Both the position numbers and the translations under genes were made by a program. Positions 195-24,341 of a DNA stretch of 40,165 nucleotides are shown one piece after another. The stretch is from a virus. How positions within the stretch are numbered: position 1 is the first letter of the stretch; each line of letters starts with the position of its first letter. Under the pieces are notes generated by a model that made no database searches, was not told the DNA's origin, and saw nothing but the letters and a program-made list of their open reading frames with translations. The stretch is from positions 1-40,165 of IMG/VR virus record IMGVR_UViG_3300021964_000172. One strand, 5' to 3'.

Positions 195-530
195 TCACCT
201 ATGAAAAATATCATACCCTTTGGATAAAGTAAGAATTGCACTATAATAAGCCATAAAGTCATCAGTTCCAATACTTTCTTCCATCAAACTTAATGTGTGT
301 TGCATAGCAAGATAAACATTGGGTTCTTTTGCAATAATCTTGTTCTTATTTGCTTGAATTTTACTTTTTGTATCTTTATACTTTTTAGTATGTCTTTCAA
401 TATCTTTAGCAGCATTCGCCATATTACTATTAAGACTAGCCTCTTCCATTTCTTCGGGAGCGTATTTATCGCCTAACTCGTTAAACTCCCTTGCTTCATC
501 AGGGTCTAACTTTAAAATGTCTTTCCACAT
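195..530 (-). CDS. W-tag protein, 111 aa, function unknown
   Basis: The protein starts MWKDILKLDPDEAREFN, one of the clearest copies of the N-terminal peptide shared across this operon. The rest is charged and helical, with a lysine-rich middle and no cysteine. There is no signal peptide or membrane segment. It starts one base after the stop of the 375-residue gene and ends inside the ribosome site of the next gene, so it is co-transcribed in the leftward operon. I do not recognise the body. Association with the virion is inferred from the shared tag and operon only. Confidence 0.7.
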   Translation of the reverse strand: MWKDILKLDPDEAREFNELGDKYAPEEMEEASLNSNMANAAKDIERHTKKYKDTKSKIQANKNKIIAKEPNVYLAMQHTLSLMEESIGTDDFMAYYSAILTLSKGYDIFHR

Positions 531-531
531 T

Positions 532-1659
532 TTAATCCCGCCATAAAAGTTGTTGCCACATTTTAGAAATAACCTTGTTATCTAAATTACCTTGGGCTTC
601 TTCCCCGAACTTTTCTCTTCTAGTTTTTCTGTAATCAAAACCAGTTTTTCTATCGCTCTGCCATGCTCTAAAACCATTAGGTGCTTTGTTAGTATTTCTG
701 CGCTTTAGTGCTCTATCAACTAAATTAATGATAGGTAAAGCAGTAAGTCTAATTCCAGTCACTTGACCAGTTAAAGAATCCTTTTCTCCTTCTGGCCCAA
801 TCTGAGTAATTTTTCTTGCTAATGCTTGTTCTTGTGGGCCTGACTTAATGGGAAACTCCGTAGCCTTTAATTCAGACCTAATTTTACTTGTAAGCAATCT
901 TCCACCAGCATTCCAATAAGTAGCATCACGAACAACCTTGTTAAAGAACTCTTCAACTGATTTAATTCCATCAATTTCAGTTTCAAAGTTTGGAGGAATG
1001 TCTCTAACCTCAACTTCAACTTCCATGTCATCTAAAAACTCAGCCGCTTCTTTCATTAGATAAAGAAGCCCTTTAGGATTAGAAAACTTAGTTTTAGTTT
1101 CAGAGAATAATGCCTGATGAGGTGGATTTTCACCAGCAAGCCATTCAGGAGGAACAGCAGTTACACCTTCATTTCTTTCAGCATACCAAGGTGTAGCATA
1201 ATGTCCTTGAACAAAACGAGGTGCTTTCTTCTGACCTGTTTTGGTCTTTTCTTGCTCAGTAAAGAGAATAAAAGCAGGGTCAAATGCAGGGCCTTTACCG
1301 CCAGCATCCTCACCAGTATCTTTCATATCTTCTAAAGTAGAGGCTAACTGCTCAATAAGTTTTGCCTGACCTTCTGTGAATAAATCATTATCAACAAACG
1401 CTTCAATGACTTCAAGGAATTGAATAGCCCCTTGACCGTCAAGACCCTTATTTCTGCTACCTGCACGAATATTTCCAGACATATGAGTTTTAAGAAACAT
1501 ATACAGGTTAGGGACACTTTTCACTTGAAGTTGTTCTCCAGAAATACCCTGACAGGTGCTTCTCCAAGTCTTGAAGTTTTCAATAAAAGGAAAGGTTCCC
1601 CCTTGGGAAACTTTATTTCCTTTGAAGTCCTTAACATTCTTTTTCTTATCTTCGGGCAT
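532..1659 (-). CDS. Large operon protein, 375 aa, probable virion or packaging protein
   Basis: This soluble protein begins MPEDKKKNVKDF and, unlike most neighbours, has no N-terminal W-tag, although the C-terminus ends with a tryptophan-rich KMWQQLLWRD. It has a mixed alpha/beta-looking composition, an acidic stretch around residues 205-215 (DDMEVEVEVRD) and a basic C-terminal third (RALKRRNTNK). GGAGG sits eight bases before the start. The start overlaps the end of the metalloprotease gene by 14 bases. I do not recognise the family. As the largest gene in a structural-type operon it is a candidate capsid-associated, portal-associated or packaging protein. Confidence 0.7.
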   Translation of the reverse strand: MPEDKKKNVKDFKGNKVSQGGTFPFIENFKTWRSTCQGISGEQLQVKSVPNLYMFLKTHMSGNIRAGSRNKGLDGQGAIQFLEVIEAFVDNDLFTEGQAKLIEQLASTLEDMKDTGEDAGGKGPAFDPAFILFTEQEKTKTGQKKAPRFVQGHYATPWYAERNEGVTAVPPEWLAGENPPHQALFSETKTKFSNPKGLLYLMKEAAEFLDDMEVEVEVRDIPPNFETEIDGIKSVEEFFNKVVRDATYWNAGGRLLTSKIRSELKATEFPIKSGPQEQALARKITQIGPEGEKDSLTGQVTGIRLTALPIINLVDRALKRRNTNKAPNGFRAWQSDRKTGFDYRKTRREKFGEEAQGNLDNKVISKMWQQLLWRD

Positions 1660-2671
1660 CCTTATCCCTCCGCTTCTTCCTACCCCTCACCACTTTATTA
1701 AACATAGCGGGGGCAGATGAAGTAGTGACAGTTGCCGCCATTTTAAGTTCGCTATCATCAAATTCAACATCTCTACCTACCGACCTTAATACTTTTGAAA
1801 GGAATTTTCTATGTTTTTCTCCATATCTTCCAACTAAGTCTTCTATATCGGCTGGGTCAATATCTCTAAGTTTTTGATTCTTTTTGTGTGTTCTAGCGGT
1901 TATTTCCATCCTTGCTAGTTTTTCTTTTGCTTTATCCTGATGCGCTTTATTTTTAATATCCGAAGTCAAACCATCAATAAACCCAATAATAACCTTAACT
2001 TCTTCTACTGGCTCTTTACTAACTGTTGTTTTAACACCTATTTCGCCCAATACACGAGGAAGTATTCTTGTTTGAGAATCTGGATGTTTAAGATAGGTTT
2101 TTAGTCTATAATAAGTATTATCTGGGAATTGTCCAACAATTGCCCCATATTCTGATGCACTATTAGACATAGGGAATTGTTCTGTTCCCATTCCAGCATG
2201 AGTGCCTTCGTGCATAATTGTTCTAATTACAAATTCCATTATTTCTTTTTCTGTGGGTTCCCTTTCTAATTTCTGCTTTAAATATCTATAAATACCCTGA
2301 TGATTAATTCTGATTTTTTCATCAACTAAATCCTTAAGTTCGGGGGCTTTACCCGTCATCATAGCATTCATCATCATGCTCATTAGCGATGCTGGAGTGT
2401 CATGTTTATTTTCAAAAGAATATGCCCCAAACGCTTGAAGGTCTTTATCAAAGTCAATATCATCTACTTTTAGAATATCCAACCATTTAACTAGCAGTCT
2501 TCTTCCTTCTTCTTCTCTCATAGGACAACTCGGACTAACAGGTGGTGCTGGAAGTCTTAATGGGCATTTTTGATATTTTGTCACTATTTGCTGACAACGG
2601 CGACAATAGCCCGTCATTTGGACACGGCTTTCCACATCTCTTTCGTCAAACTTGACAATTTCTTTCCACAT
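1646..2671 (-). CDS. Putative HExxH zinc metalloprotease with two W-tag motifs
   Basis: The 341-residue protein opens with the operon tag (MWKEIVKFDE). Four cysteines follow (residues 23, 26, 36, 49) that could bind zinc, and then a second tag-like motif, WLDILKVD, at residues 63-70. Residues 154-158 read HEGTH, matching the HExxH zincin active site, with a plausible third ligand at E174 in SASEYGA. The C-terminal half is charged and helical and ends in a very basic tail (RGRKKRRDKDARR). The combination suggests a protease that travels into the virion or assembling head and may act there. That is inference: the HExxH is visible, the substrate is not. Confidence 0.65.
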   Translation of the reverse strand: MWKEIVKFDERDVESRVQMTGYCRRCQQIVTKYQKCPLRLPAPPVSPSCPMREEEGRRLLVKWLDILKVDDIDFDKDLQAFGAYSFENKHDTPASLMSMMMNAMMTGKAPELKDLVDEKIRINHQGIYRYLKQKLEREPTEKEIMEFVIRTIMHEGTHAGMGTEQFPMSNSASEYGAIVGQFPDNTYYRLKTYLKHPDSQTRILPRVLGEIGVKTTVSKEPVEEVKVIIGFIDGLTSDIKNKAHQDKAKEKLARMEITARTHKKNQKLRDIDPADIEDLVGRYGEKHRKFLSKVLRSVGRDVEFDDSELKMAATVTTSSAPAMFNKVVRGRKKRRDKDARR

Positions 2672-2672
2672 A

Positions 2673-2936
2673 TCAATCTTTCCGAGTAAATGGATTCTTG
2701 GGCTTAGGTTTCTTTTTCTTTGCCGCTTCTTTCATAGATTCGGTTCTGTTTCCATCACCGTCAATGTCTATGTAATCAGGCTTTGCACCTTTAGCGGTAT
2801 GTCCACAAATACATTCGCTTCGTGGTGCATTTCCATCACAATGAGGACAACCGCCCTTATTCAAACATTCTTCGCAACTGCAAGTTCCCATTTTTGCGGT
2901 GCAATTGCTTTTTCTAACAATATCTCTCCAACTCAT
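2673..2936 (-). CDS. W-tag protein with Cys-rich zinc module and EF-hand-like loop
   Basis: The 87-residue protein starts MSWRDIVRKS, a tag variant. Residues 12-45 contain eight cysteines in CxC, CxxC and CxC spacings (for example CSCEEC and CPHC), which suggests one or two zinc sites. A segment DIDGDGNRTESM at about residue 56 resembles a calcium-binding EF-hand loop. The tail is lysine/proline rich (KKKKPKPKNP). The start overlaps the preceding gene's stop by ATGA, with GGTGAG upstream. Function is unknown; each module is short, so the calcium assignment is tentative. Confidence 0.65.
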   Translation of the reverse strand: MSWRDIVRKSNCTAKMGTCSCEECLNKGGCPHCDGNAPRSECICGHTAKGAKPDYIDIDGDGNRTESMKEAAKKKKPKPKNPFTRKD

Positions 2937-3040
2937 TTTTTCTCACCTGTAATCAAGTCTTTCTTTTGTTTTAGTTCTTCTTCGTCTAAACGCTTTGATT
3001 CAGCATCAAACCATGAATCTAAGTAAGTGCATCTTGTCAT
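2933..3040 (-). CDS. Small charged protein, 35 aa
   Basis: I place the start at 3040 (MTRCTYLDSWFDAESKRL) because GGAGAAATTAAC stands just before it. A longer reading would run through the repeated intergenic spacer. The peptide has one cysteine and a helical charged C-terminus (DEEELKQKKDLITGEKK). Its stop overlaps the next gene's ATG, so the two are translationally coupled. No family is recognised. Its size makes it a weak but plausible gene. Confidence 0.5.
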   Translation of the reverse strand: MTRCTYLDSWFDAESKRLDEEELKQKKDLITGEKK

Positions 3041-3043
3041 GTT

Positions 3044-3074
3044 AATTTCTCCAAAAATTTTTGGCGGAATTTTT
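3044..3074 (-). repeat. Intergenic spacer repeat, copy 1
   Basis: Read on the minus strand this is an AT-rich spacer containing ATTCCGCCAAAAATTTTTGG. Almost the same sequence lies in front of other W-tag genes at about 3655-3686 and 4266-4300, with shorter versions at 3418-3435 and 3936-3950. It places a self-complementary AAAAATTTTT core 10-25 bases before the start codon. Confidence 0.6.
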
Positions 3075-3407
3075 TCAAATCTCATCCGTTTGTTGTTCAA
3101 ATAGACTATGCACTTCTTTAATTGAATCTTCAACCTTGTTTAAATGCTCGTATAACTCTTCCACAGCACCATAAATTTCAAAGTATTCTAACTCCTCACG
3201 CACTTTTTCGCTCATAAGATTTGCTTCCATTTCATCTAGGTATTTTCCAATTTCACCCCTATTAATGCTATTAACCATTTCTTTAACCAAATCTCTCAAA
3301 TATGAAAAAGCCTGCTCATCGCCATATTTAAAATTACGAACAGGTTTGCCCGTTTTTTCATCTCGCCAATAGCCGAATTCGTTTTTAATAATATCTTCCC
3401 AATTCAT
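3075..3407 (-). CDS. W-tag protein, 110 aa, helical
   Basis: I choose the start at 3407, giving MNWEDIIKNEFGYW, because the tag then aligns with the neighbours and the sequence before it (GATGATTAAC) is the same as before the next tagged gene. The body is strongly acidic and helical, with heptad-like hydrophobics from about residue 60 to the end (EELYEHLNKVEDSIKEVHSL), so a coiled coil is likely. It has no cysteines or membrane segments. Function is unknown; it is treated as virion-associated from the shared tag. Confidence 0.7.
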   Translation of the reverse strand: MNWEDIIKNEFGYWRDEKTGKPVRNFKYGDEQAFSYLRDLVKEMVNSINRGEIGKYLDEMEANLMSEKVREELEYFEIYGAVEELYEHLNKVEDSIKEVHSLFEQQTDEI

Positions 3408-3432
3408 GTTAATCATCTCTTTTCTCAAAATT

Positions 3433-3642
3433 TTATCTAAACTCATTGACTAGTCTTTGAACTTCTTTGAGTAATACAGGCCTTAACTCTTTATCTACCA
3501 TATTATCAAAATAATCCATATCACGATTTTCTGTCATAGTATCATCTTCAAATAATTTAGAATACATAGCCTCAACCATAGAATTTACAGTCTCCTGTAA
3601 TCCAGCCTCAGTTCTTAATTTAAGTATATCCGTCCAATTCAT
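3433..3642 (-). CDS. W-tag protein, 69 aa
   Basis: The start at 3642 gives MNWTDILKLRTEAG, a near copy of the other tag openings. The 5' leader up to and including ATGAATTGG is the same as for the 110-residue gene downstream. The body is a short amphipathic helical protein with a methionine-rich middle (MVEAMYSKLFEDDTM). No domain is recognised. It lies 25 bases before the next gene. Confidence 0.65.
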   Translation of the reverse strand: MNWTDILKLRTEAGLQETVNSMVEAMYSKLFEDDTMTENRDMDYFDNMVDKELRPVLLKEVQRLVNEFR

Positions 3643-3654
3643 GTTAATCATCTT

Positions 3655-3687
3655 TTTTTTCTCAAAAAATTTTTGGCGGAATTTTTT
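3655..3687 (-). repeat. Intergenic spacer repeat, copy 2
   Basis: On the minus strand the spacer reads AAAATTCCGCCAAAAATTTT followed by TTGAGAAAAAAAAGATG. It matches copy 1 at 3044 over about 25 bases and again ends shortly before a W-tag start codon. Confidence 0.6.
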
Positions 3688-3918
3688 TCAAAATTGACCC
3701 ATATCAATAATATCTTGTAATTCATCAGCAAATCTATCTGCTTTTTGGGCTGCTCTTTTCAATGCTTGTCTTTGCTCTTTACTCACCATTTGGGGGTCAT
3801 TACTAGCCCCAAGGTCATAAAGAGCATCTTCTATATCAAATAGCATTTTTATAAGCCTTTTTAGACTATCAGTTGGTTCGCCATAAGTTTCTTCTTTTTT
3901 AATTTCTTCTTTCCACAT
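3688..3918 (-). CDS. W-tag protein, 76 aa, helical
   Basis: The protein starts MWKEEIKKEETYGEP, a divergent tag that keeps the tryptophan, acidic and basic positions. The rest is one or two long amphipathic helices (LKRLIKMLFDIEDALYDL, then QALKRAAQKADRFADEL). GGTGATATT precedes the ATG. It is probably a small multimerising protein. I do not recognise a family. The operon position and tag tie it to the same unknown process as its neighbours. Confidence 0.65.
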   Translation of the reverse strand: MWKEEIKKEETYGEPTDSLKRLIKMLFDIEDALYDLGASNDPQMVSKEQRQALKRAAQKADRFADELQDIIDMGQF

Positions 3919-3950
3919 AATATCACCTTTAATTTCTCAAAAATTTTTTA

Positions 3951-4259
3951 CTAGTATTCCTCAGACTTCTGCACATAGGCCTTCATAGCCAGTTGGTATC
4001 TATGTAATAATTTAATTAACTCAGTAGGGGAAACATCAATTTTTTCACTATTAGGGCCAATATTTTCATTGTGTAGTTTAACTGCTGATTCTAAAATATT
4101 AGTCCCTAACCTTTGAAGGTCTTTATGTAAATTTAACATCTGTTTATCAATATTAGAATCAACAATTCTACTTGCAGAAAGAGAATTTGAAGTAGTAATC
4201 TCTATGTCGTCCTCATCATCTACAAATCTTATGTTTTTCCTAATCGTATCTTTCCACAT
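3951..4259 (-). CDS. W-tag protein, 102 aa; first gene of the tagged operon
   Basis: The start at 4259 gives MWKDTIRKNIRFVDDEDD, so the tag is followed by an acidic patch. The middle carries hydroxyl-rich residues (TTSNSLSASR) and a C-terminal helical half (MLNLHKDLQRLGTNILESA). No cofactor motif is seen. The repeated spacer stands directly in front, and the possible TATA sequences near 4315-4340 would make this the promoter-proximal gene of the leftward operon. Confidence 0.65.
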   Translation of the reverse strand: MWKDTIRKNIRFVDDEDDIEITTSNSLSASRIVDSNIDKQMLNLHKDLQRLGTNILESAVKLHNENIGPNSEKIDVSPTELIKLLHRYQLAMKAYVQKSEEY

Positions 4260-4461: not shown

Positions 4462-4704
4462 TTATTGTTCAGTATTTCCGATGCCAAACTGAGTTAATGA
4501 GGTTTGCACACGGAACGATGTTATGTATTTATTCAGATTTGTGCGAACTTGTTTTAATTTATTCAATATCTCATTAAGTGCTCTTTTCTCATCATTTGAT
4601 AGTTGCCTAATATCTTTTCTCTGTTCTTTGGCTTCTTCAAGGGTTTCTTTGATTAGGGTGAATATTTCATTTAAATGCTGTCTAGCCTCTTCTTCGGCAG
4701 ACAT
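4462..4704 (-). CDS. Coiled-coil protein, 80 aa
   Basis: The protein (MSAEEEARQHLNEIFTLI...) is almost all helix with regular leucine/isoleucine spacing to residue 60, so it is a probable coiled coil. It has no W-tag and is separated from the tagged operon by about 200 bases. A TATA-like ATTATAGGG lies about 30-40 bases upstream on the minus strand (4735-4743). The gene is therefore probably an independent leftward unit. Function is unknown; a scaffold or regulator role is possible. Confidence 0.6.
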   Translation of the reverse strand: MSAEEEARQHLNEIFTLIKETLEEAKEQRKDIRQLSNDEKRALNEILNKLKQVRTNLNKYITSFRVQTSLTQFGIGNTEQ

Positions 4705-5116: not shown

Positions 5117-5623
5117 TCATTCCTCTTCTTGACCTCCTTCGTCGGCTTTCACCGCAGGTGGGGTCATTGATGGGATTTCACCGTTCATGGTTCCATCCCA
5201 ACGACCTTCTTTGTAGCCCTTAACGAGAGCATCATAGGCCTTTTTGCCCATTGACTGAGCAAGTGCCTCAATATCCTCAAAGGCTCCACCAGTTCGCCCA
5301 TGAGGGAGAATAACGGTAGTAATCAAGTCAGCGTTAGAAATACCCGCAAAGGCAGCAACGACCATATTCTTCACAGAAGCCGCAGACAACTCTACTTCTT
5401 CGGGCAAAGACGATTCTCGGCCTCGGCGGGCGACTGGGAAATCGTCATAAGGACTCCCAATTGAGCGAATTGCTGTCCAATAAGTTGAGCGCAATTCATC
5501 GCTTTCCGTTGCATTTCCAAGTGTAATAGAAAGAGAAATCGCATTACCGACATCTCCCCTATCTTCACGGTCTAGCCATGCTAGAACCGCATTCGTGTTC
5601 TTTATCCAATTTTTCGCATTCAT
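5117..5623 (-). CDS. Cassette paralogue A, 168 aa
   Basis: The start at 5623 (MNAKNWIKNTNAVLAW) is chosen because GGAGG lies about ten bases upstream. The protein is clearly related to the gene at 6782-7306: both contain DELRSTYWTAIRSIGS, then FP.ARRGRES, HGRTGG and EGRWDG, and both end in an acidic GG(Q/S)EEE tail. A more distant relative is at 9505-9978. No membrane segment or catalytic motif is recognised. The conserved Arg/Trp/Gly blocks suggest a binding protein, possibly for DNA or for itself. Gene plus 5' flank are duplicated as a unit. Confidence 0.75.
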   Translation of the reverse strand: MNAKNWIKNTNAVLAWLDREDRGDVGNAISLSITLGNATESDELRSTYWTAIRSIGSPYDDFPVARRGRESSLPEEVELSAASVKNMVVAAFAGISNADLITTVILPHGRTGGAFEDIEALAQSMGKKAYDALVKGYKEGRWDGTMNGEIPSMTPPAVKADEGGQEEE

Positions 5624-5692
5624 GATAATCAATCCTCCAATAAAGGTTTTGATGCTCCGTTTTCCCCCCGAAGCAACCCAACCTTACAATAT

Positions 5693-6781: not shown

Positions 6782-7306
6782 TCACTCTTCCTCGGAACCT
6801 CCTTCCGATTTGCCCGTATTTACAGGCGGTGGCGTGATTTGGGGAACTCCGTTGTTATCAACGGTGAGTCCATCCCAACGGCCCTCTTTAATGGCCTTAG
6901 TCATGTAGGAATGAGCCTTTGTGCGGTAAGAATCAACTAAATCGCTAAAAGTCTCATAAACGCCACCGGTTCGTCCATGAGGCACAATAACGGAAAGAAT
7001 CATGCTTTGGTGTTCAGTAGGGATTTGAGCAATAGCATGAGCCACACTTTCCTCCACAGTCGCCAAAACAAGTTCCTGTTCCTCCGAAAGCGCAGATTCT
7101 CGCCCTCGTCGTGCCGCAGGAAAACCCTCCATAGTGGAGCCAATTGAACGGATAGCCGTCCAATAGGTGCTTCTTAGTTCGTCCGTAGCCGCATTGTCGC
7201 CCAAAGTGAGCGATAGCAACACAGCATTCAAATTGTCGGATTTGGGTTGATTTTCAGCCCACGCCCGAACCTTGTTCGTGTTCAATGTCCAATTTTTCAT
7301 CTTCAT
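6782..7306 (-). CDS. Cassette paralogue B, 174 aa
   Basis: The start at 7306 (MKMKNWTLNTNKVRAW) has GAGGTGA close upstream. A much longer reading upstream is rejected because it would run through the palindrome region and antisense to a plus-strand gene. It shares DELRSTYWTAIRSIGS, ARRGRES, HGRTGG, KEGRWDG and the acidic GGSEEE end with paralogue A, and weaker blocks with the gene at 9505. The two leftward paralogues also share the 80-base 5' repeat. Unknown function. The duplication argues that its dose or diversity matters to the virus. Confidence 0.75.
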   Translation of the reverse strand: MKMKNWTLNTNKVRAWAENQPKSDNLNAVLLSLTLGDNAATDELRSTYWTAIRSIGSTMEGFPAARRGRESALSEEQELVLATVEESVAHAIAQIPTEHQSMILSVIVPHGRTGGVYETFSDLVDSYRTKAHSYMTKAIKEGRWDGLTVDNNGVPQITPPPVNTGKSEGGSEEE

Positions 7307-7344
7307 GTTTTTCACCTCGTTTTTAAAGTGTCTCCAAGTGTTTT

Positions 7345-7421
7345 CCCCCCTTGAAGCACCAAACCCCATGCAATAGCATATAAGGTTGATTCCATGCAAA
7401 GCAGTAATCAACCATATGGTT
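7345..7421 (-). repeat. Long cassette 5' repeat, copy 2 (upstream of paralogue B)
   Basis: It has the same order of blocks as the copy at 5664: CCCCCC..GAAGCA, CATATAAGGTTG, GCAAAGC, CAACCATATGGTTG. The arms GGTTGATT (7384-7391) and AATCAACC (7406-7413) pair perfectly, although the bases differ from copy 1. A TATA-like AACCTTATATG on the minus strand is at 7377-7387. Confidence 0.65.
7412..7419. repeat. CCATATGG element, copy 7
   Basis: It lies between the divergent genes at 7306 and 7460, with GCAAAGCA to the left and TGCACTTTG to the right. It is the point where the coding strand switches from minus to plus. Confidence 0.7.
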
Positions 7422-7459
7422 GCACTTTGTAGAAAGCCAAGAATAATCGCACCTGTTTG

Positions 7460-7759
7460 ATGAATATCATGCAAAGCGTGTTCGTCGTCCAAATCTGTGA
7501 ATTGCCCGCCAAATACCCCGAATGGAAAACTCAACTCCAACACGGAATCTTCCGTCGTCGTGAGGAAGCCGTAAATGCCATGCTCAATTTCATGGCTCGC
7601 AAAATGCGAGACGGTATTGATGAGATTCGTGAAATGTCCTCCACCAAGCGAGGCAAGGGCCTTGCCGACTACAACCGCAAAGTGGATGAAATCGTGGTGC
7701 AAATCCCACGCTCAATTCGTGTCCACGAATTGCCTCTCCGAGACAATCGGGGGTATTGA
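7460..7759 (+). CDS. Cassette protein, 99 aa
   Basis: First plus-strand gene of the array, starting MNIMQSVFVVQICELPAKYP. A TTG three bases earlier is a less likely start. The protein is basic and helical (RRREEAVNAMLNFMARKMRD) and ends in a beta-like VVQIPRSIRVHELPLRDN. It has no recognised domain. It is followed after seven bases by a strong TTCG hairpin and then by palindrome copy 8, so it is a self-contained unit. Confidence 0.6.
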   Translation: MNIMQSVFVVQICELPAKYPEWKTQLQHGIFRRREEAVNAMLNFMARKMRDGIDEIREMSSTKRGKGLADYNRKVDEIVVQIPRSIRVHELPLRDNRGY

Positions 7760-9504: not shown

Positions 9505-9978
9505 ATGGATAACACAGCATGGGATTCACTTGTCATTGAAGTGAACGAATACCTTGAAGCCGACCAGACGCTTGACGCAGGATTGCGCCAAGTTGTTGAA
9601 TTGAACCTGCAAATCGGGACGAACAACCCTGATGAGCGAACTGCCGCCGAAGGTGCTTTAAAAGCCCTTTTGCGAGGCCGTGACGGAACCCCGTTCCGCC
9701 GTGGACAAAAGAGCGCAGTTCCCGCATCTGTTCGTGTCGCTATTGACCGAATTTGTGGCGTTGTTGAAGAAGCCTCCGTTGCTTACTACAACCACGACAC
9801 CATTATCGGTGCAATTACGATGAAGCACATCAAATCTGGCGGTGGAGCCTTTGATGACGCAGAAGATTACGCTTCTGCCGTTGTCAAGAGAACCCGAAAC
9901 AATTTGAGCAAAATGTTCAAAGACGGTTCTTGGGATGGTTCGGTTGATTCCCTTTTGGGCGAATCGGACGAACTTTGA
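9505..9978 (+). CDS. Cassette paralogue C, 157 aa
   Basis: The gene starts MDNTAWDSLVIEVNEYLEAD behind AAGGAG and a strong TATA box. It is a diverged relative of the genes at 5117 and 6782: DERTAAEGALKAL replaces DELRSTYWTAIRS, RRGQKSA replaces RRGRESA, KSGGGAFDD replaces GRTGGAFED, and KDGSWDG replaces KEGRWDG. The end is acidic (GESDEL). No known domain is recognised. It stands outside the palindrome array with the strongest promoter in the region, so it may be the ancestral or main expressed copy. Confidence 0.7.
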   Translation: MDNTAWDSLVIEVNEYLEADQTLDAGLRQVVELNLQIGTNNPDERTAAEGALKALLRGRDGTPFRRGQKSAVPASVRVAIDRICGVVEEASVAYYNHDTIIGAITMKHIKSGGGAFDDAEDYASAVVKRTRNNLSKMFKDGSWDGSVDSLLGESDEL

Positions 9979-14491: not shown

Positions 14492-14725
14492 ATGGAAGAT
14501 AACTTTATTACTATTGAATGGGGAAATACTATTCATAACGACAACACTATCCACAAGCGAACTATTTATCAGTTTGATACTATTAATGGTTTGCGAACTG
14601 CTTGGGAAAACCGAAATCGTTTGTCTGGTTGTGAATATGAAGCAAACACTAGAGAATTGACTATTACTGCCCGTGAATGGGTAAATGTTGATGAATACTT
14701 TGTTATGATGGAGGAAGAAGAATGA
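14492..14725 (+). CDS. Small acidic protein, 77 aa
   Basis: The protein begins MEDNFITIEWGNTIHNDNTI and looks mostly beta (repeated T/I/W strands), with one cysteine. It ends in MMEEEE because the last codons double as the next gene's Shine-Dalgarno (GGAGGAAGAAGAATG). Function is unknown. Confidence 0.65.
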   Translation: MEDNFITIEWGNTIHNDNTIHKRTIYQFDTINGLRTAWENRNRLSGCEYEANTRELTITAREWVNVDEYFVMMEEEE

Positions 14726-14841
14726 GAAAGGTTTTTTGCTCTAATTGTTCGGTTCCTATTGGTAAATCACCACATAATTTTAACACCAAAGTCATATTTT
14801 GTTGGAGTTGCTCAGATTTGAAGGAGAATGGAATTATATGA
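14722..14841 (+). CDS. Mini zinc-ribbon protein, 39 aa
   Basis: Read by hand: MRKVFCSNCSVPIGKSPHNF, then NTKVIFCWSCSDLKENGII. Two CxxC knuckles about 20 residues apart form a classical zinc ribbon. The gene overlaps its neighbours on both sides by ATGA. Such free-standing ribbons can act as transcription or assembly cofactors. The target is unknown. Confidence 0.65.
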   Translation: MRKVFCSNCSVPIGKSPHNFNTKVIFCWSCSDLKENGII

Positions 14842-15497
14842 ATATCTTTGCACTATCACGAAACCCTGTTGAAGCGGCTCAACAAATGATTGATAAACAC
14901 ATTATCAAAATGCCGACTGAAACCTGTCAAATGTTGCATACTAACATTCTTTATATGCAATATGTCAAAGAACACGGTGAAGAACCTCAATTGAAAGACC
15001 TTAAGGCTTTTCACCTCGCCACCGAGTCCAATTTAATGAAGCCAGCCATGCTAAACCACCCCTCAACCATTTGGGCGAGGCAAACTTATGCTAATTGGAA
15101 TTGGCTTTATGAGCATGGCTTGGCTCTTTGCGACGAATACACTTATCGTTATGAGAAAAAACATGGAACTCTTCAAAGAATCCTTGATTGTATTCCTTAC
15201 TTTGATGTGGTGTTTGAACACCCCTTTCAAAAGAAGAGACTACAACCCGTAACAATTGCTATGGACGACCAGTATCGGATTCGTAATCCAATGGAAATTT
15301 CTAACTGGAATTTTGTAATTAAATCTTATCGCCACTATTATCTTGAGGGCAAGTGGCGTATTGCTGAATGGCGTAAAAATCGCCGTCCTAATTGGTTTCC
15401 TGCAAACCATTACGCAAAGAAATATAATGTAGGTGTTCGTGCCTACAATGCCCGCAAACCACGATACCCTCAAAAACTAATGGAGGAAGAAGAATGA
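14838..15497 (+). CDS. Conserved phage protein family, 219 aa
   Basis: The start at 14838 (MNIFALSRNPVEAAQQMIDK) overlaps the zinc gene's stop. The opening MNIF.L..NP..AAQ...DKH..KM..ET.QML, the later NHPSTIWARQTYANWNWLYE and EYTYRYEKKHG, and the end WRKNRRPNWF follow a pattern I recall from widespread uncharacterised phage proteins, which are sometimes annotated as pyrimidine-dimer glycosylase-like. I cannot confirm that activity. The conserved His, Asp and Trp residues suggest an enzyme or DNA-binding protein. Confidence 0.7.
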   Translation: MNIFALSRNPVEAAQQMIDKHIIKMPTETCQMLHTNILYMQYVKEHGEEPQLKDLKAFHLATESNLMKPAMLNHPSTIWARQTYANWNWLYEHGLALCDEYTYRYEKKHGTLQRILDCIPYFDVVFEHPFQKKRLQPVTIAMDDQYRIRNPMEISNWNFVIKSYRHYYLEGKWRIAEWRKNRRPNWFPANHYAKKYNVGVRAYNARKPRYPQKLMEEEE

Positions 15498-15769
15498 GTG
15501 AAAATATTAACTGGAAAGAATGCGCCCAAGACTATTACAACAAAAACGGAAATGACCTTACTTGGGCTTTTGAGGTTGTTGATTCCTATATTCCCATCTA
15601 TTATAATGATATTGCACAAGAAGCGATGCGCCTTAATTTGTATGGTGAAGAAATTGAAGAAACAATGTCTGGTTGGCCGATTTATAAAGTGCTTCAGATG
15701 TTGATTTTTAATGAATATTATGGCCTTTTCATTGAAGAATATACTGAACTTTTGGAGGAAGAAGAATGA
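15494..15769 (+). CDS. Acidic protein, 91 aa
   Basis: The protein starts MSENINWKECAQDYYNKNGN and is rich in Tyr, Trp and acidic residues, with a probable helical bundle. It overlaps the previous gene by ATGA, and its LLEEEE end encodes the GGAGGAAGAAGA ribosome site of the next. No family is recognised. Confidence 0.65.
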   Translation: MSENINWKECAQDYYNKNGNDLTWAFEVVDSYIPIYYNDIAQEAMRLNLYGEEIEETMSGWPIYKVLQMLIFNEYYGLFIEEYTELLEEEE

Positions 15770-15882
15770 AAATTAGAACACCACGACGATGTATTGCTTG
15801 TAATGTAGTAGTGAATAGAAAATACCCCTACTGCTTTACTTGTTTAAATGAATTAGAAGATAAAAAAGGAGATGAATTGTAA
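15766..15882 (+). CDS. Mini zinc-ribbon protein, 38 aa
   Basis: Read by hand: MKIRTPRRCIACNVVVNRKY, then PYCFTCLNELEDKKGDEL. The two CxxC knuckles are 16 residues apart, with a basic N-terminus. The gene overlaps its neighbours by ATGA at the start and TAATG at the end. Confidence 0.65.
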   Translation: MKIRTPRRCIACNVVVNRKYPYCFTCLNELEDKKGDEL

Positions 15883-16133
15883 TGTATAGTGAAGTAGAAA
15901 ACAAAGTTATTCAATCCCTACAAAAAGAGTTTGGGATGATTTATGAAGAAAACGAAGAACATATTGTTATGGAAAAGGTAAGGATTGCCCGCCACTTTTA
16001 TGAAAAGGCAACCGATGATTTCCGAGTGAATCAATCTGCTCAAAACTATAATAATCTAATTATTGCTATGGTTTCTTTACAATACTGGAATCAGAAGAAA
16101 GTTCGTCTGTTCTCAATTAGGGAGGACTTTTGA
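15882..16133 (+). CDS. Small helical protein, 83 aa
   Basis: The protein begins MYSEVENKVIQSLQKEFGMI. It is helical with an aromatic C-terminal half (YNNLIIAMVSLQYWNQKKVR). The start overlaps the preceding stop as TAATG. The opening MYSE is shared with the 16755 gene but the rest is not. Unknown function. Confidence 0.6.
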   Translation: MYSEVENKVIQSLQKEFGMIYEENEEHIVMEKVRIARHFYEKATDDFRVNQSAQNYNNLIIAMVSLQYWNQKKVRLFSIREDF

Positions 16134-16244
16134 ATGTGTGGTGCGATTTCTACCCCATGTGAAACTGAAAACTGTGAGCGATTTACTAAAGAAATTTATT
16201 GCTCTAACTGTAAGGCAAACATGGCTCATTTAACAGGTGTTTAA
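16134..16244 (+). CDS. Mini cysteine-rich protein, 36 aa
   Basis: Read by hand: MCGAISTPCETENCERFTKE, then IYCSNCKANMAHLTGV. Five cysteines including a CxxC suggest a zinc ribbon. The gene follows the previous stop directly, and GGAGG lies ten bases upstream. Confidence 0.55.
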   Translation: MCGAISTPCETENCERFTKEIYCSNCKANMAHLTGV

Positions 16245-16245
16245 G

Positions 16246-16548
16246 ATGGAATGTAAAAAATGTCAAGGAACAGGATGGTATAAAGTTCCAAATGTCCGTC
16301 TTGAAATTATGGAGAATGTTGAGTGTCTAGATTGTTTAGCACATGAAAACTACAAAGACCATTTGAAAGGCGAATTATCCCGTCTCTTAATCAACACAAG
16401 CCAACAAAAACTTGCACAAATTGTAGCACAGTTAATTGTTAATTCAGTTGATAGGAATGAGAACGACGACATTCAACGGATTGAGGGCATCATCCATACT
16501 AAAGACACAATGAACGCTCTCACGCTTGCAGAAGCGTATTCACAATAA
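16246..16548 (+). CDS. DnaJ-type zinc-finger protein, 100 aa
   Basis: The start at 16246 gives MECKKCQGTGWYKVPNVRLE. CKKCQGTGW is the CxxCxGxG repeat of DnaJ-like zinc fingers, and CLDC at about residue 30 supplies the second half. A helical tail follows (LAQIVAQLIVNSV). A small chaperone cofactor or an RNA-binding role are both possible. It ends 15 bases before tRNA-Arg. Confidence 0.65.
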   Translation: MECKKCQGTGWYKVPNVRLEIMENVECLDCLAHENYKDHLKGELSRLLINTSQQKLAQIVAQLIVNSVDRNENDDIQRIEGIIHTKDTMNALTLAEAYSQ

Positions 16549-16563
16549 GGAAATGGCTCACAT

Positions 16564-16639
16564 GGGCGTATGGTGTAATGGGATAGCATTTTGGCCTTCT
16601 AAGCCGAAGATTCGGGTTCAAATCCTGATACGCCCGCCA
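16564..16639 (+). tRNA. tRNA-Arg (UCU), CCA encoded
   Basis: The acceptor GGGCGTA pairs with TACGCCC, followed by discriminator G and an encoded CCA (16637-16639). The D stem is GTGT/GCAT, the anticodon arm TTGGC-CTTCTAA-GCCGA with anticodon TCT, and the T arm TCGGG-TTCAAAT-CCTGA. It reads AGA, a codon this AT-rich virus uses often. Confidence 0.95.
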
Positions 16640-16687
16640 TTTCCTGTTGTTAAACCAACTTTTAGACAGGCCCGCCGCAGTTTTGAG

Positions 16688-16701
16688 TTTTTTATATACT
16701 C
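16688..16701 (+). promoter_or_regulatory. TATA promoter TTTTTTATATACTC
   Basis: The box lies about 55-65 bases before the gene at 16755 and resembles the TTTATATAC core of the two strong promoters at 9439 and 17911. An imperfect inverted pair GACAGGCC...GGCCTGAC type arms (16671-16715) flanks it. Confidence 0.5.
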
Positions 16702-16754
16702 TCGGCTGTCAGGCCTTTCAACCAAATCAAATTAAAAATAAAGAGGTAATAAAA

Positions 16755-17129
16755 ATGTATAGTGAACAAGAAACGATGCAAACCGTGATTCTTAATATCC
16801 TTTTGAATCATGAAAGAGTTACAAATGAAGACTGTAAAAATGCTTTGACTCATGCAAATCTTATTAAGCCAACAACCAATGCTATGAATAATACTATTCG
16901 TGCATTGTTAATTTCTTTGAATAGATTTTTCAAGGAACATGATATTTTGTTGTATCGTGGTTTTTTAGATGTAAAAGATAATGTTAAGTATTACAAAGCA
17001 ACAGAAGAAGCAGTTGAGTTTTGTAGCAAGCATCTATTACAAGAAATGTATGATGAAGATGGACAATTAATTGGGTATTTCTTTCAACACCCAATTGCAC
17101 TTAAAAAAGAGAGGATGGAATTAATATGA
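16755..17129 (+). CDS. Protein of 124 aa, possibly winged-helix
   Basis: The protein starts MYSEQETMQTVILNILLNHE behind AAGAGGTAATAAAA. The arrangement of an N-terminal helix, then VTNEDCKNALTHANLIKPTT, then a helix, then YRGFLDVKDNVKYYKATEEA looks like a winged helix-turn-helix, so a transcription regulator is possible. It has its own TATA promoter after tRNA-Arg and overlaps the next gene by ATGA. Confidence 0.6.
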   Translation: MYSEQETMQTVILNILLNHERVTNEDCKNALTHANLIKPTTNAMNNTIRALLISLNRFFKEHDILLYRGFLDVKDNVKYYKATEEAVEFCSKHLLQEMYDEDGQLIGYFFQHPIALKKERMELI

Positions 17130-17374
17130 ACGAAATAAAACCAAAAGTAGAATTTAGAATAATTGATGCAGAAGATATGCCGCCTATTGTCATATCACAG
17201 AATGAAAATGATGAACCGAAGGTAGTGATTAATACTTATCACCGACTTTGGTTAAGTCTTAACCGACGATTAATTGCAGGTATTGTTGATGCTTTGCCTG
17301 AAAAGTTTGATATGATTTTAACTGCATATCTTGAGCAACAACGAGCATATGAAAAAATGGATAGGGAGGAATAA
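17126..17374 (+). CDS. Protein of 82 aa, unknown
   Basis: The gene begins MNEIKPKVEFRIIDAEDMPP and has a beta-rich first half followed by two helices (HRLWLSLNRRLIAGIVDAL). It overlaps the preceding stop and ends two bases before the next gene, with AGGGAGGAATAAAT as the shared ribosome site. No family is recognised. Confidence 0.65.
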   Translation: MNEIKPKVEFRIIDAEDMPPIVISQNENDEPKVVINTYHRLWLSLNRRLIAGIVDALPEKFDMILTAYLEQQRAYEKMDREE

Positions 17375-17376
17375 AT

Positions 17377-17802
17377 ATGGGAATACAAAAAGAATGCAGT
17401 ATATGTAAAAATACTTTCGTGAGCAGGACGATTAAATCAGCACGATGGGAAAGGAAATGTCCAGAATGTTATGGAAAATCAAAACAAACAACTGCTGCTG
17501 AAAAGGTTCAAAAACAACACCTTTATAATGATGCTTCAATGCGTAAAGACATTGAAAAGTTGTATGCAAAAGTTTCTGATATTGATGTTCTGATAAGTGC
17601 AGAAATTAGTAATACTCTTGCCTCATTATCAGACAATCAATTGTTTGACAAAATCCATCAACAGATGGAACAAACTCTTAATGAGAAACTTAAAGAAATC
17701 AACGAAGAGAACGATAAGTTCAAAACTAAGATTCAGAGTCAATTGATTTCTTTGAATAATAAAATTGTAAAAATTATGCAGGAGATGAAAGAAAATGATT
17801 AA
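17377..17802 (+). CDS. Zinc-ribbon coiled-coil protein, 141 aa
   Basis: Residues 7-33 form a zinc ribbon (CSICKNTF then RKCPECYG). The rest, from about residue 45, is a long charged coiled coil (LNEKLKEINEENDKFKTKI). The layout of zinc knuckle plus coil suggests a dimeric adaptor. It overlaps the following membrane peptide by eight bases. Confidence 0.65.
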   Translation: MGIQKECSICKNTFVSRTIKSARWERKCPECYGKSKQTTAAEKVQKQHLYNDASMRKDIEKLYAKVSDIDVLISAEISNTLASLSDNQLFDKIHQQMEQTLNEKLKEINEENDKFKTKIQSQLISLNNKIVKIMQEMKEND

Positions 17803-17908
17803 AACATTGGTAAAGATAGCATTTTGGGGAACTGTCGGCGTAGCAACAGGTGTTGTGGGTATTGGCTTACTTGCCGCCCTTGACGACGCAGATTACCCTT
17901 TGGAGTAA
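17795..17908 (+). CDS. Small single-pass membrane protein, 37 aa
   Basis: Read by hand: MIKTLVKIAFWGTVGVATGV, then VGIGLLAALDDADYPLE. A glycine-rich hydrophobic helix spans residues 5-28 with a basic N-terminus and acidic C-terminus, so the N-terminus probably faces the cytoplasm. It has the size of a holin or small virulence-type membrane peptide, but function is unknown. Confidence 0.6.
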   Translation: MIKTLVKIAFWGTVGVATGVVGIGLLAALDDADYPLE

Positions 17909-17910
17909 GT

Positions 17911-17926
17911 GGACTCCTTTATATAC
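17911..17926 (+). promoter_or_regulatory. Strong TATA promoter GGACTCCTTTATATAC (copy 2)
   Basis: Identical over all 16 bases to the promoter at 9439-9454. It lies about 41 bases before the start of the ubiquitin-like gene, so it should drive that gene with a leader of about 20 bases. Confidence 0.7.
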
Positions 17927-17966
17927 TTTGGAAGAGTAGAGAAAACACACATCAGGAGATGATATT

Positions 17967-18173
17967 ATGATTAAGTTAAGAATTATGAATGAAACTGGAC
18001 ATACAGAAGTTGTCCTCGCACAAAGCGAGGTTATTGACGAAATTGACCGACACCCTACCCATTGGGTCTTTATTGACGGAGAAATGGTTAGCCGAGAATC
18101 TATCGGTGAAATTAACTGGGAAACGGTTCAATCTGTTGATTTGACTCCCGCAATCGTTGGAGGGTGCTATTGA
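17967..18173 (+). CDS. Ubiquitin-like/MoaD-like beta-grasp protein ending GG-CY
   Basis: The 68-residue protein starts MIKLRIMNETGHTEVVLAQS, a beta-hairpin, then a helix (EVIDEIDRH), then WVFIDGEMVSRE, and ends VDLTPAIVGGCY. The final VxLxPAIxGG matches the C-terminal tail of MoaD/SAMP-type ubiquitin-like proteins. Two residues (Cys-Tyr) follow the Gly-Gly, so it would be a precursor needing cleavage, as known for the GGCF tail of QbsE cut by the JAMM enzyme QbsD. The virus also encodes a JAMM and an E1-like enzyme. The gene is alone between a strong promoter and a hairpin terminator, suggesting high expression. The fold is inferred from sequence pattern. Confidence 0.6.
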   Translation: MIKLRIMNETGHTEVVLAQSEVIDEIDRHPTHWVFIDGEMVSRESIGEINWETVQSVDLTPAIVGGCY

Positions 18174-18212
18174 AATTAGTGTAATTTCTTTACTCTTCCA
18201 AAACCGCATATT

Positions 18213-18255
18213 GGGGGTAGCGTGGGGTTAATCCTCCCTGCGCTATCCCCTTTTT
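18213..18255 (+). terminator. Hairpin plus T-tract after the ubiquitin-like gene
   Basis: TGGGGGTAGCGTGGGG pairs with CTCCCTGCGCTATCCCC around TTAATC, with one or two wobble pairs, and TTTTT follows at 18251-18255. It ends the single-gene unit from the 17911 promoter. Confidence 0.7.
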
Positions 18256-18261
18256 CGGGTG

Positions 18262-18642
18262 ATGCAACCCGATTTGATTAATTTTATCAACCAAAATGGA
18301 TTAAAAATAATGCTAGACCTGAAAGGATGGAAATTAACATCCTGTATTCAGATAAATGGTTTAGCAGTAGTAAAACCTGACTTCTATCCCGCCCGTCATG
18401 TCCTCGCTATGGGGACGAGGGGCTACATTTATGCCGAAGGGCAGACTCGGATTGAATACGCAGGGCAGACATTTTCATCAACAGAAGAATTGCTTCTTTC
18501 TTGTGGAAAAAATGCTATTCTGAATTTTAAGGACTGGGTATTCCTTGAAGAAATGGAGTGGGTAATAACCGATGGAACTAATTGGTTATCTTCTTTCTCT
18601 AATCTTTCTGAATTACCTAAACGAAGTAAATATAGGTGTTAA
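18262..18642 (+). CDS. Protein of 126 aa, unknown
   Basis: I start it at 18262 (MQPDLINFINQNGLKIMLDL); a GTG three bases earlier is the alternative and the ribosome site is weak. The sequence is mixed alpha/beta with several aromatic clusters and three cysteines that do not form a clear zinc motif. It ends two bases before the RNR gene, so it may be a partner of RNR, but this is only from position. Confidence 0.55.
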   Translation: MQPDLINFINQNGLKIMLDLKGWKLTSCIQINGLAVVKPDFYPARHVLAMGTRGYIYAEGQTRIEYAGQTFSSTEELLLSCGKNAILNFKDWVFLEEMEWVITDGTNWLSSFSNLSELPKRSKYRC

Positions 18643-18644
18643 AC

Positions 18645-20510
18645 ATGACTCAAGCCCCAAATAAGAAAATTTTATCTGACATTACTGTGCATATGAAATA
18701 CGCAAAATACAACCCCGAACTTCTCCGCCGAGAAACTTGGGATGAAATTGTTGAGCGAAACATGGAAATGCACATAAAAACCTATCCTCAATTAGAAGAG
18801 GATATTCGTGATGTTTATACTCATTTTGTCAAAACTAAGAAAGTTTTGCCTTCTATGCGCTCAATGCAATTTGGCGGTAAGCCAATTGAAATTAGCCCTA
18901 ATCGGGTCTATAATTGTGCTTATATGCCTATTGATACTCATATCGCTTTTAGTGAAGCCATGTTCCTATTGTTAGGTGGAACAGGTGTAGGATATTCGGT
19001 TCAACGACACCATGTTGAATTAATGGCTCCTATTCAGCATCCTAACTCAAACCGCCAACGACGATATTTAGTCAATGATTCAATAGAAGGTTGGGCTGAT
19101 GCAGTTAAAATTCTAATGGAGTGTTATACTGGTGTTAGAACATCTACACCTACATTTGATTATTCTGATATTAGACCAAAAGGCTCTCTTTTGAAAACTT
19201 CTGGTGGAAAAGCGCCAGGCCCACAACCATTAAGAGAATGTCTCGTTAAAATTGAAGGTATGCTTCAAAACATTCCTAATGGTTCTATGTTGAAACCAAT
19301 TCAAGCACACGATATTATGTGTCATATTGCTGATGCAGTTCTAAGTGGAGGTATTCGTCGTGCGGCTATGATTAGTTTATTCTCCGCAGACGACCATGAA
19401 ATGATTGCTTGTAAATCTGGTAATTGGTGGGAAAACAATCCCCAAAGAGGCAGGGCAAACAATTCAGCAGTTCTTTTGCGACACCGAGTTACAAAAGAAT
19501 TTTTTATGGATTTGTGGAATAGAATTAAAGCATCTGGTTCAGGAGAGCCGGGAATTTATTTCAATAATGATAAAGATTGGGGGACTAATCCCTGTTGTGA
19601 AATTGCACTCCGACCATATCAGTTCTGCAATTTAACTGAAGTTAATGCTTCAGATATTACAGACCAAGCGGATTTAGAATCAAGAGTTTCTGCCGCCGCA
19701 TTCCTCGGAACGCTTCAAGCAGGATATACTGATTTTCACTATCTTCGTGAAGTATGGCGTAAAGCAACAGAAAAGGATGCTTTGCTCGGTGTTTCTATGA
19801 CAGGTATTGCTTCAAATGTTGTTGAACATTTAGATTTAGAAATGGCCGCTTATGAAGTCAAGAAAGAGAATGAGCGTGTCGCTAAAGAAATAGGTATTAA
19901 TCCAGCATCAAGAACAACCTGTGTTAAACCTGCTGGAACGACTTCTCTTGTTCTTGGAACAAGTAGTGGGATTCATGCTTATCACGATGAGTATTATATT
20001 CGTCGCCTTCGTGTCGGTAAGAATGAAGCAATCTATGGTTATCTCGCAAACAATCATCCAGAATTGGTTGAGGATGAGTTTTTCAATCCGCACGAACAAG
20101 CGGTTATTTCAGTCCCACAAAAAGCACCAGAATCAGCGATTATTCGCCATGAATCAGTATTTAATTTACTAGAAAGAGTAAAAAACTTTAGCATTCGTTG
20201 GGTTCGTGCAGGACATAATGATGGATTGAATACCCACAATGTTTCTGCTACTATTTCTATTAAAGATGATGAATGGGAAACGGTTGCAGATTGGATGTGG
20301 CTTAACCGACATTATTATAATGGACTGTCTGTTCTCCCATATGACGGAGGCACATATACTCAAGCACCTTTTGAAACCTGCGATAAAGAAACATATGATA
20401 AATTGACTGAAGCACTACAAGATGTTGATTTGACTATGATTCAAGAATTACAGGACGATACTGACCTTTCAGGTGAAATTGCCTGTGCTGGCGGTGCTTG
20501 CGAAATCTAA
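18645..20510 (+). CDS. nrdJ: Class II (adenosylcobalamin) ribonucleotide reductase
   Basis: The 621-residue enzyme reduces ribonucleotides to deoxyribonucleotides for viral DNA synthesis. Key residues match the monomeric B12-dependent type: C91 in RVYNCAYMP, the active site NPCCEI with C317 and E319, C328 in FCNLTEVN exactly eleven residues after C317, and a C-terminal CAGGACEI pair (C-x4-C) for re-reduction. The GGTGVGYSVQ and KPAGTTSLVLGTSSG motifs are intact. It is shorter than the 739-residue Lactobacillus enzyme. It needs cobalamin, which must come from the host or sea water. There is no class I small subunit nearby. Confidence 0.92.
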   Translation: MTQAPNKKILSDITVHMKYAKYNPELLRRETWDEIVERNMEMHIKTYPQLEEDIRDVYTHFVKTKKVLPSMRSMQFGGKPIEISPNRVYNCAYMPIDTHIAFSEAMFLLLGGTGVGYSVQRHHVELMAPIQHPNSNRQRRYLVNDSIEGWADAVKILMECYTGVRTSTPTFDYSDIRPKGSLLKTSGGKAPGPQPLRECLVKIEGMLQNIPNGSMLKPIQAHDIMCHIADAVLSGGIRRAAMISLFSADDHEMIACKSGNWWENNPQRGRANNSAVLLRHRVTKEFFMDLWNRIKASGSGEPGIYFNNDKDWGTNPCCEIALRPYQFCNLTEVNASDITDQADLESRVSAAAFLGTLQAGYTDFHYLREVWRKATEKDALLGVSMTGIASNVVEHLDLEMAAYEVKKENERVAKEIGINPASRTTCVKPAGTTSLVLGTSSGIHAYHDEYYIRRLRVGKNEAIYGYLANNHPELVEDEFFNPHEQAVISVPQKAPESAIIRHESVFNLLERVKNFSIRWVRAGHNDGLNTHNVSATISIKDDEWETVADWMWLNRHYYNGLSVLPYDGGTYTQAPFETCDKETYDKLTEALQDVDLTMIQELQDDTDLSGEIACAGGACEI

Positions 20511-20519
20511 GGTGATTAA

Positions 20520-20888
20520 ATGACACTCTTCAAATCATTTGAAGAGTATTTAGAAACAGTAATATTAATGATTAGAGATTTGTCAGACGACTCTCTCAAA
20601 AGAATAAACTTAGCAATAAATGTCTGTGATTCATACATAGATGAGAATGAAAAAATGTTTAGGCTAAATACTACATTAAAAGAATGTTTTTGGGAAATTG
20701 AGGAAGCCATCCTTTGTGGTTTCCATAAATACCTAAAAGAACAAAGTGCTAAGACTAAAGAGTTGGTTGATTATCATAGAGTCAATTGCGAAGGAATGGA
20801 TTGTAAAATCTGTAAATCAAAAAAATTAACAATAAATAGAATGAGGAGTTTAAATGAGAGAACACGACCCAAATTATATTCTCAATAA
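20520..20888 (+). CDS. Protein of 122 aa with C-terminal cysteine motif
   Basis: The protein (MTLFKSFEEYLETVILMIRD) is helical for 85 residues and ends with HRVNCEGMDCKICKSKK, a likely zinc site. It starts ten bases after RNR behind AAGGTGA and overlaps the next mini-gene by 35 bases. No family is recognised. Co-expression with RNR is likely. Confidence 0.6.
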   Translation: MTLFKSFEEYLETVILMIRDLSDDSLKRINLAINVCDSYIDENEKMFRLNTTLKECFWEIEEAILCGFHKYLKEQSAKTKELVDYHRVNCEGMDCKICKSKKLTINRMRSLNERTRPKLYSQ

Positions 20889-21015
20889 GAGAAACAATAA
20901 ACAAATAGCCACACGCTGTCGTGTGTGCGGTGGGCAACTTATGGTTGCTGATGAAATTAAAAAAGAAATTCACAATAAATGTGATAATGATGATAAAAAT
21001 ATATATATGATGTGA
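20854..21015 (+). CDS. Small zinc protein, 53 aa
   Basis: Read by hand: MREHDPNYILNKRNNKQIAT, then RCRVCGGQLMVADEIKKEIH and NKCDNDDKNIYMM. The CRVCGG knuckle with HNKC supplies a possible single zinc site. GAGGAG lies before the start. It sits between the RNR operon and the 388-residue gene. Confidence 0.55.
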   Translation: MREHDPNYILNKRNNKQIATRCRVCGGQLMVADEIKKEIHNKCDNDDKNIYMM

Positions 21016-21019
21016 TAAA

Positions 21020-23030: not shown

Positions 23031-23031
23031 A

Positions 23032-23355: not shown

Positions 23356-23367
23356 GGAGGAATAAAT

Positions 23368-24339: not shown

Positions 24340-24341
24340 AT

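Follow-up and report, generated by a model that had tools for sequence, protein, structure and literature searches.

A seven-residue tryptophan motif recurs on otherwise unrelated late proteins of magroviruses and may direct them into the viral head

The DNA analysed here, hereafter the window, is a stretch of 40,165 nucleotides from the IMG/VR virus record IMGVR_UViG_3300021964_000172 (positions 1 to 40,165). Its plus strand encodes GroEL, RFC, TFB, PCNA, a B-family DNA polymerase, ribonucleotide reductase and DNA ligase, identified by eye, and the left end of its minus strand carries small late genes. An earlier note on this sequence had reported that seven otherwise unrelated proteins encoded at 195-4259 share a short N-terminal peptide containing tryptophan, here called the tag. 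All seven openings lie on the minus strand exactly where they had been placed, and the sharing is far beyond chance. The genes of this block, and the first gene beyond it, are as follows.

195-530, minus strand: 111-residue protein with a small helical body; N-terminal tag MWKDILKLD (504-530); tagged relatives in related records G007, G003 and G004
532-1659, minus strand: 375-residue protein without an N-terminal tag; C-terminal motif MWQQLLWRD (535-561)
1646-2671, minus strand: 341-residue fusion of a Cys-rich part and a HEGTH part; tags MWKEIVKFD (2645-2671) and KWLDILKVD (2462-2488)
2673-2936, minus strand: 87-residue Cys-rich protein with a D-x-D-G-D-G-N stretch; N-terminal tag MSWRDIVRK (2910-2936)
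2933-3040, minus strand: 35-residue small open reading frame starting MTRCTYLDSW; no clear tag; cluster c82, found in 5 records
3075-3407, minus strand: 110-residue protein; N-terminal tag MNWEDIIKN (3381-3407)
3433-3642, minus strand: 69-residue protein; N-terminal tag MNWTDILKL (3616-3642)
3688-3918, minus strand: 76-residue protein; N-terminal tag MWKEEIKKE (3892-3918)
3951-4259, minus strand: 102-residue protein; N-terminal tag MWKDTIRKN (4233-4259)
4462-4704, minus strand: 80-residue helical late protein; untagged; kept in 8 records; first gene beyond the tagged block

Two of these genes proved richer than first described. The protein at 532-1659, regarded as an untagged neighbour, indeed lacks an N-terminal tag but carries the motif at its C-terminus; its relatives terminate in MWQQLLWRE, SWMDILRN, SWQDILRW or KWDEVLRV, and one is N-terminally tagged instead. 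The protein at 1646-2671 does open with a tag but, judging from its alignment with unfused relatives, is a fusion of two separately tagged proteins that has retained both tags, the second (KWLDILKVD) at residues 62-70, and its HEGTH part is metalloprotease-like. In G005 the Cys-rich protein (a 58-residue gene) and the HEGTH protein are adjoining separate genes, each with its own tag. The 2673-2936 protein matches phrog_24078 (E-value 1.8e-5) and retains its tag in 6/6 relatives. Finally, the family at the left edge (1-198) ends in a weaker C-terminal motif, WLDIKKK, that was excluded from the counts below.

The window covers part of the genome of a magrovirus (order Magrovirales), a tailed double-stranded DNA virus of Poseidoniales archaea. 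Profiles seeded with its own proteins recovered RFC, PCNA, TFB and GroEL in 11-13 related records, in which portal, terminase, S78 prohead protease and capsid genes were recognised via Pfam or PHROGs (head genes in 15). The archaeal replication set, GroEL, Caudoviricetes head genes, two opposed gene blocks and a size of about 90-100 kb are found together, and the same layout and genome size have been described for magroviruses, or Aoguangviridae, tailed viruses of marine Poseidoniales (PMC10768690). The sample comprised 16 related records and 1,702 genes predicted with a simple codon-usage gene caller; eight records were chosen via two proteins of the 195-4259 block and eight via a DNA scan for one exact tag pattern, the latter half being selected for having one exact tag, and the related genomes are not independent. 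A 184,733-base record, G001, includes the window at a 261-base offset. Its terminase, portal, protease, capsid protein, GroEL, RFC, TFB and PCNA genes each occur in two copies (loci L014-L023), and it is probably an assembly artefact in which two different magrovirus genomes of ~92 kb each were joined.

Across this sample, the strict motif, M.{0,2}W-x-[DENQST]-[ILV]-[ILV]-[KRHQN], stands at the start of 208/1,702 genes, all of them on the late strand and none early. Inside proteins it occurs at 8.3e-5 per residue, or ~0.00025 expected per gene, and the rate at gene starts is ~490-fold higher; a chance origin of the tag was rejected on this comparison (~0.00025 against 0.122 per gene). Swapping the tryptophan for any of eight other residues left at most 8 matches. 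Likewise, when the residue classes were arranged in 360 orders, the true one gave 208 late and 0 early matches and the others averaged 2.2; the permutations that scored higher nearly overlap the true motif. A profile derived from the N-terminal tags and trained on the same records that it scored reached 8 or more, the cut-off, in 302/904 late genes versus 5/798 early genes. The tag had been described as a feature of the 195-4259 block; it instead spans the late strand genome-wide, on about twenty proteins per magrovirus genome. Within the late strand it follows gene order: in five records with a clear layout, 89/157 genes upstream of the capsid gene are tagged and 1/88 from the capsid gene onward. 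The terminase, portal, capsid and tail families of the related magrovirus records bear no tag.

The conserved unit itself is small. With their tryptophans aligned, 206 distinct tags follow the pattern M-[S/T/N]-W-[K/E/F/Q]-[D/N/E]-[I/V]-[L/I/V]-K, with information contents from W to K of 4.3, 1.6, 2.5, 3.6, 3.4 and 4.0 bits and 0.6 at the next position. All six leucine and all three isoleucine codons are used within tags, as broadly as in the rest of the genome, and the lysine at +1 is AAA in 96% of tags versus 69% overall. Because the information drops after K and synonymous codons vary freely, the conserved unit is a peptide of ~7 residues, and this pattern of variation indicates that selection acts on the peptide.

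The bodies behind the tag are, as first noted for the window, mutually unrelated: across the 16 records they form 127 clusters, 102 of them singletons, mostly without known relatives. An alignment of 121 representatives yielded the majority consensus MxWxxILK and nothing beyond it, and a 12-member tagged family of ~750 residues has M1, W3, K8 and P11 as its invariant columns. In the AlphaFold model of a 751-residue tagged protein family (predicted local distance difference test, pLDDT, 78.9), residues 1-7 are of low confidence or disordered and the body is folded. The model of the 341-residue HEGTH protein is poor (pLDDT 58), and neither model gave a convincing fold match, or its protein a sequence match, among solved structures. 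Overall, tag and body can be separated, and the tag is constrained in its own right. A PAP2-superfamily phosphatase (L026:16610-17185, minus strand, with its relatives; E-value 1.5e-12) makes up one of the tagged families; this class is often found in membranes and would be an unusual head cargo. Related tagged proteins can also cluster six or seven to a genome (150-226 residues; G011, L193, and G012, L196), which points to rapid duplication of cargo genes.

The motif is also found away from N-termini. A family adjoining the terminase contains the internal copies AWFNLLK and SWKDILKW; in G007 this family is split into two genes, the second of which starts with the motif. Similarly, DUF6321 proteins carry it at the start, or internally where an extra N-terminal segment precedes it. 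Judged by these placements and by the ends of the 532-1659 family, the motif occurs independently of chain position, most often at the N-terminus, in some proteins at the C-terminus and in others between domains.

A scan of the viral collection for a DNA pattern yielded, among the matches listed (120 stretches), 137 exact pattern matches, 111 of which start a reading frame in loci with magrovirus genes. Among these same listed matches, 101/111 magrovirus openings share their locus with at least one further tagged gene, the clustering that such a search had been suggested to look for. Most other N-terminal matches belong to one family of 73-77 residues that opens with MSWKEIFKD and occurs once per locus on viral contigs without magrovirus genes; its loci include L071, L072, L076, L119 and L156. 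The 100 kb examined of halovirus HVTV-1 held no such tags. When 84,980 bacterial and archaeal genomes were scanned, 22 matches came up, most of them outside open reading frames and none with a second tag in its locus; because these matches are few, single and mostly non-coding, the tag is no general feature of cells.

Relatives of three tagged bodies occur in marine bacterial phages, where they lack the tag. For example, the magrovirus protein beginning MEWQDILKKKKKKKSTVNQSGNYTKPGMRKRIFNRIK corresponds to one beginning MATPKKKSTVNKAGNYTKPTMRKALFNKIK in Methylophilales phage MEP402, with the tag added in front; DUF6321 relatives align only past the tag, and DUF5872 relatives are also untagged. 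In T4-like cyanophages the DUF5872 and DUF6321 domains lie in one multi-domain protein, which the depositors of cyanophage S-E7 annotated as structural. In that Synechococcus phage, the protein (L061, 52966-54555) has internal stretches similar to the T4 targeting sequence, SFSDFQEKA among them. Untagged versions of the same bodies, which had been named as a result that would speak against a sorting peptide, thus occur in bacterial phages, which have different heads; the tagged magrovirus families, in contrast, nearly always keep the tag, as would be expected of a lineage-specific address label.

A link to the head comes from two assembly proteins. The head module is covered by 15 of the 16 records, and in all 15 a close variant of the motif, MDWSDIHKMV, forms the C-terminus of two proteins: the S78 prohead protease, with ends such as MDWADIHKMVGGNL, and a coiled-coil-like protein of ~80 residues, encoded between portal and protease, which ends in MDWSEIHKMVSKME. 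We infer that the latter is the scaffold. In lambda, the protease, a small scaffold and the portal form an initiator, and the scaffold contacts the capsid protein (PMC3224144). Between the coiled-coil protein and the prohead protease also lies an 848-residue late protein (L026:8401-10947, minus strand; G005), with relatives in all head-module records; it holds an ATP-dependent DNA ligase domain (PF01068, E-value 3.3e-31) and is additional to the separate ligase of the early block.

Because short peptides load the T4 head and encapsulin shells, we propose, as the probable explanation, that the tag is a position-independent docking peptide that loads cargo, the protease and a probable scaffold into the procapsid. 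In this scheme, M-[STN]-W-x-[DN]-I-L-K would let proteins dock on a single receptor of the magrovirus procapsid, most plausibly the capsid protein, and proteins bearing it would be gathered into the head during its assembly. They would form internal virion cargo, probably delivered to the host with the DNA. The most likely arrangement is that protease and scaffold use a helix of the MDWSDIHKMV type to bind the shell interior or the portal and that cargo proteins bear a copy of this helix. The earlier note had also read the tag as a peptide that, as in T4, serves sorting or docks on one receptor in assembly, and this reading agrees with the confinement to the late strand upstream of the capsid gene, the unrelated bodies and the variant on the protease and coiled-coil protein. 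The variant on the protease and the structural annotation of the cyanophage relatives bear on packaging indirectly.

Several observations weigh against this proposal. MDWSDIHKMV is a close variant of the motif rather than the motif itself, with H or N replacing L, and 4-9 of the 2,561 tryptophan windows in early proteins score as high on the profile as most of its copies do (6.5-9.0). Each single copy is modest evidence because some early windows score equally; coincidence is unlikely because in all these genomes two head-assembly proteins have the variant as their extreme C-terminus. A few tagged genes of G012 and G013 are located downstream of the capsid gene. Scanned against Pfam and PHROGs, the tagged proteins of the window and the 121 tagged representatives gave almost no matches, so the functions of the cargo cannot be read from the bodies. 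In addition, a search of the sequence downstream of the tags found no enriched cleavage motif.

Among the alternatives, the one that survives best, though we consider it unlikely, is docking on a non-structural late hub, such as a polymerase, late regulator or packaging motor, that co-localises late proteins. Tagged genes do cluster near the terminase and portal genes, and the data point to a common partner without saying which; the variant-bearing protease and coiled-coil protein, however, are head-assembly proteins by homology or gene position. Slightly less probable still is an amphipathic anchor, which would collect late proteins on the host membrane or in a virus factory and would not package them. 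In its favour, the short motif could well be amphipathic (W, I and L fall on one side when inspected by eye), and the PAP2-type family is probably membrane-bound. Yet the variant sits on the prohead protease, which acts inside the procapsid, tail genes are untagged, copies lie between domains, and the tryptophan is nearly irreplaceable, which is unusual for a generic membrane helix.

We give very little credence to the idea that the virus's own GroEL recognises the tag and folds the proteins bearing it. Magroviruses do encode GroEL, and chaperonins bind amphipathic segments, but G010 (99 kb) and G017 (94 kb) are tagged and a profile search found no GroEL match in them; early, capsid and tail proteins are, moreover, untagged. 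A T4-type leader, cut off by the S78 protease once it has targeted the cargo, is a sub-version of the docking proposal and appears just as improbable. Its residue-type order is that of T4 MKTYQEFI and MKTFKEFT, and the S78 protease is present; internal and C-terminal copies are nevertheless unlike a leader. These copies speak against a purely N-terminal leader, and cleavage by the prohead protease finds no support in a conserved cleavage motif after the tag. Least plausible of all is a promoter, ribosome-binding site or downstream box that encodes the peptide incidentally: A-rich gene starts may account for the AAA bias at the +1 lysine, but every Leu and Ile codon is used, D/N/E and I/V/L interchange, the peptide also occurs C-terminally and between domains, and capsid and tail genes lack it.

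The docking proposal can be taken further. Somewhat short of an even chance, in our estimate, one shell-binding helix could serve as a universal loading code, bringing the protease, the scaffold and ~20 fast-changing payload proteins to the same site inside an HK97-lineage shell, wherever in the chain the helix lies. If true, this code would be a viral counterpart of encapsulin loading, and a large pre-made set of proteins would be delivered into the archaeal host. Marine group II archaea have abundant, uncultured viruses, and the late proteins of these viruses mostly lack known relatives; an address label readable from sequence would flag probable internal or delivered proteins, ~20 per genome, and provide a handle for metaproteomics.

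Beyond the tag, three further patterns were seen in the window. The C-terminal module of the HEGTH protein, AxVTTSSxPAxFN plus a basic tail (1646-1725, minus strand), also occurs on much shorter tagged proteins (G015:85263-85607 and G020:89836-89976) and reads as a second mobile short module. Proteins of ~160 residues with the motifs RRGRES and PHGRTGG flank the early/late boundary at 5117-5632 (minus strand), 6782-7702 (minus strand) and 9505-9978 (plus strand), the third being more divergent and matched by eye; the first eight records hold 16 members of this family, which has no Pfam match. Finally, many early proteins at 14492-30174 (plus strand) end in EEE or EEEE, which is probably an in-frame reading of the GGAGGAG ribosome-binding site of the next gene.

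The paper on magrovirus diversity that we examined does not mention such a tag (two key magrovirus papers fell outside that search), and a limited literature search found no paper combining "capsid targeting" with "archaeal virus". The closest precedent by mechanism is T4, where the internal proteins of T-even phages are a highly diverse set conserved only in the capsid-targeting sequence (CTS; PMC3012670). In T4 (NC_000866), IPI starts MKTFKEFT and two further open reading frames, taken as other internal proteins, start MKTYQEFI. A 54-residue T4 open reading frame outside these three internal-protein genes also starts MKTFKEFIKED (L230, 19107-19130, minus strand). Like the CTS of the internal proteins and Alt, the magrovirus tag is a short N-terminal peptide common to highly diverse, unrelated proteins of late, head-linked genes, and both order their residue types as aromatic, polar, acidic and two hydrophobic. 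Unlike the CTS, the tag does not match MKT[YF][QK]EF[IT], is also C-terminal or internal, marks about a third of late genes, has a variant on the protease and shows no cleavage motif, and packaging in magroviruses is a prediction from sequence. If it is correct, capsid-targeting peptides would extend to archaeal viruses, and cargo loading would be tied to the protease and scaffold.

Other phages offer looser parallels. Head proteins of the giant phages SPN3US and phiKZ have propeptides, with conserved N-termini on the diverged ejection proteins gp53 and gp54 (PMC5694885); these propeptides, in contrast to the seven-residue magrovirus motif, are mostly over 100 residues and are cleaved. Lambda C, Nu3 and B resemble the magrovirus arrangement in that a head protease and a small protein near the portal and capsid genes share a C-terminal element, whereas in magroviruses only a short end motif is common and the scaffold role is putative. 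We know of no extension of the shared lambda element to a large cargo set.

Encapsulins, in which short C- or N-terminal cargo peptides bind an HK97-fold shell (PMC8346489), are the second precedent after T4. Both peptides are short and lie at either terminus of unrelated cargo, and both shells are of the HK97 lineage. The classical encapsulin motif, however, is TVGSL-like (PMC8346489) versus W-x-D-I-L-K in magroviruses, where the cargoes would be many and binding to the shell is putative. If it does occur, viral heads would be connected with the loading logic of encapsulins, and HK97-lineage shells would gain a new short loading peptide. That a short peptide can load proteins into an HK97-lineage head is known already; to our knowledge, the novelty in magroviruses lies in its scale, in its freedom from a fixed position and in the protease sharing it.

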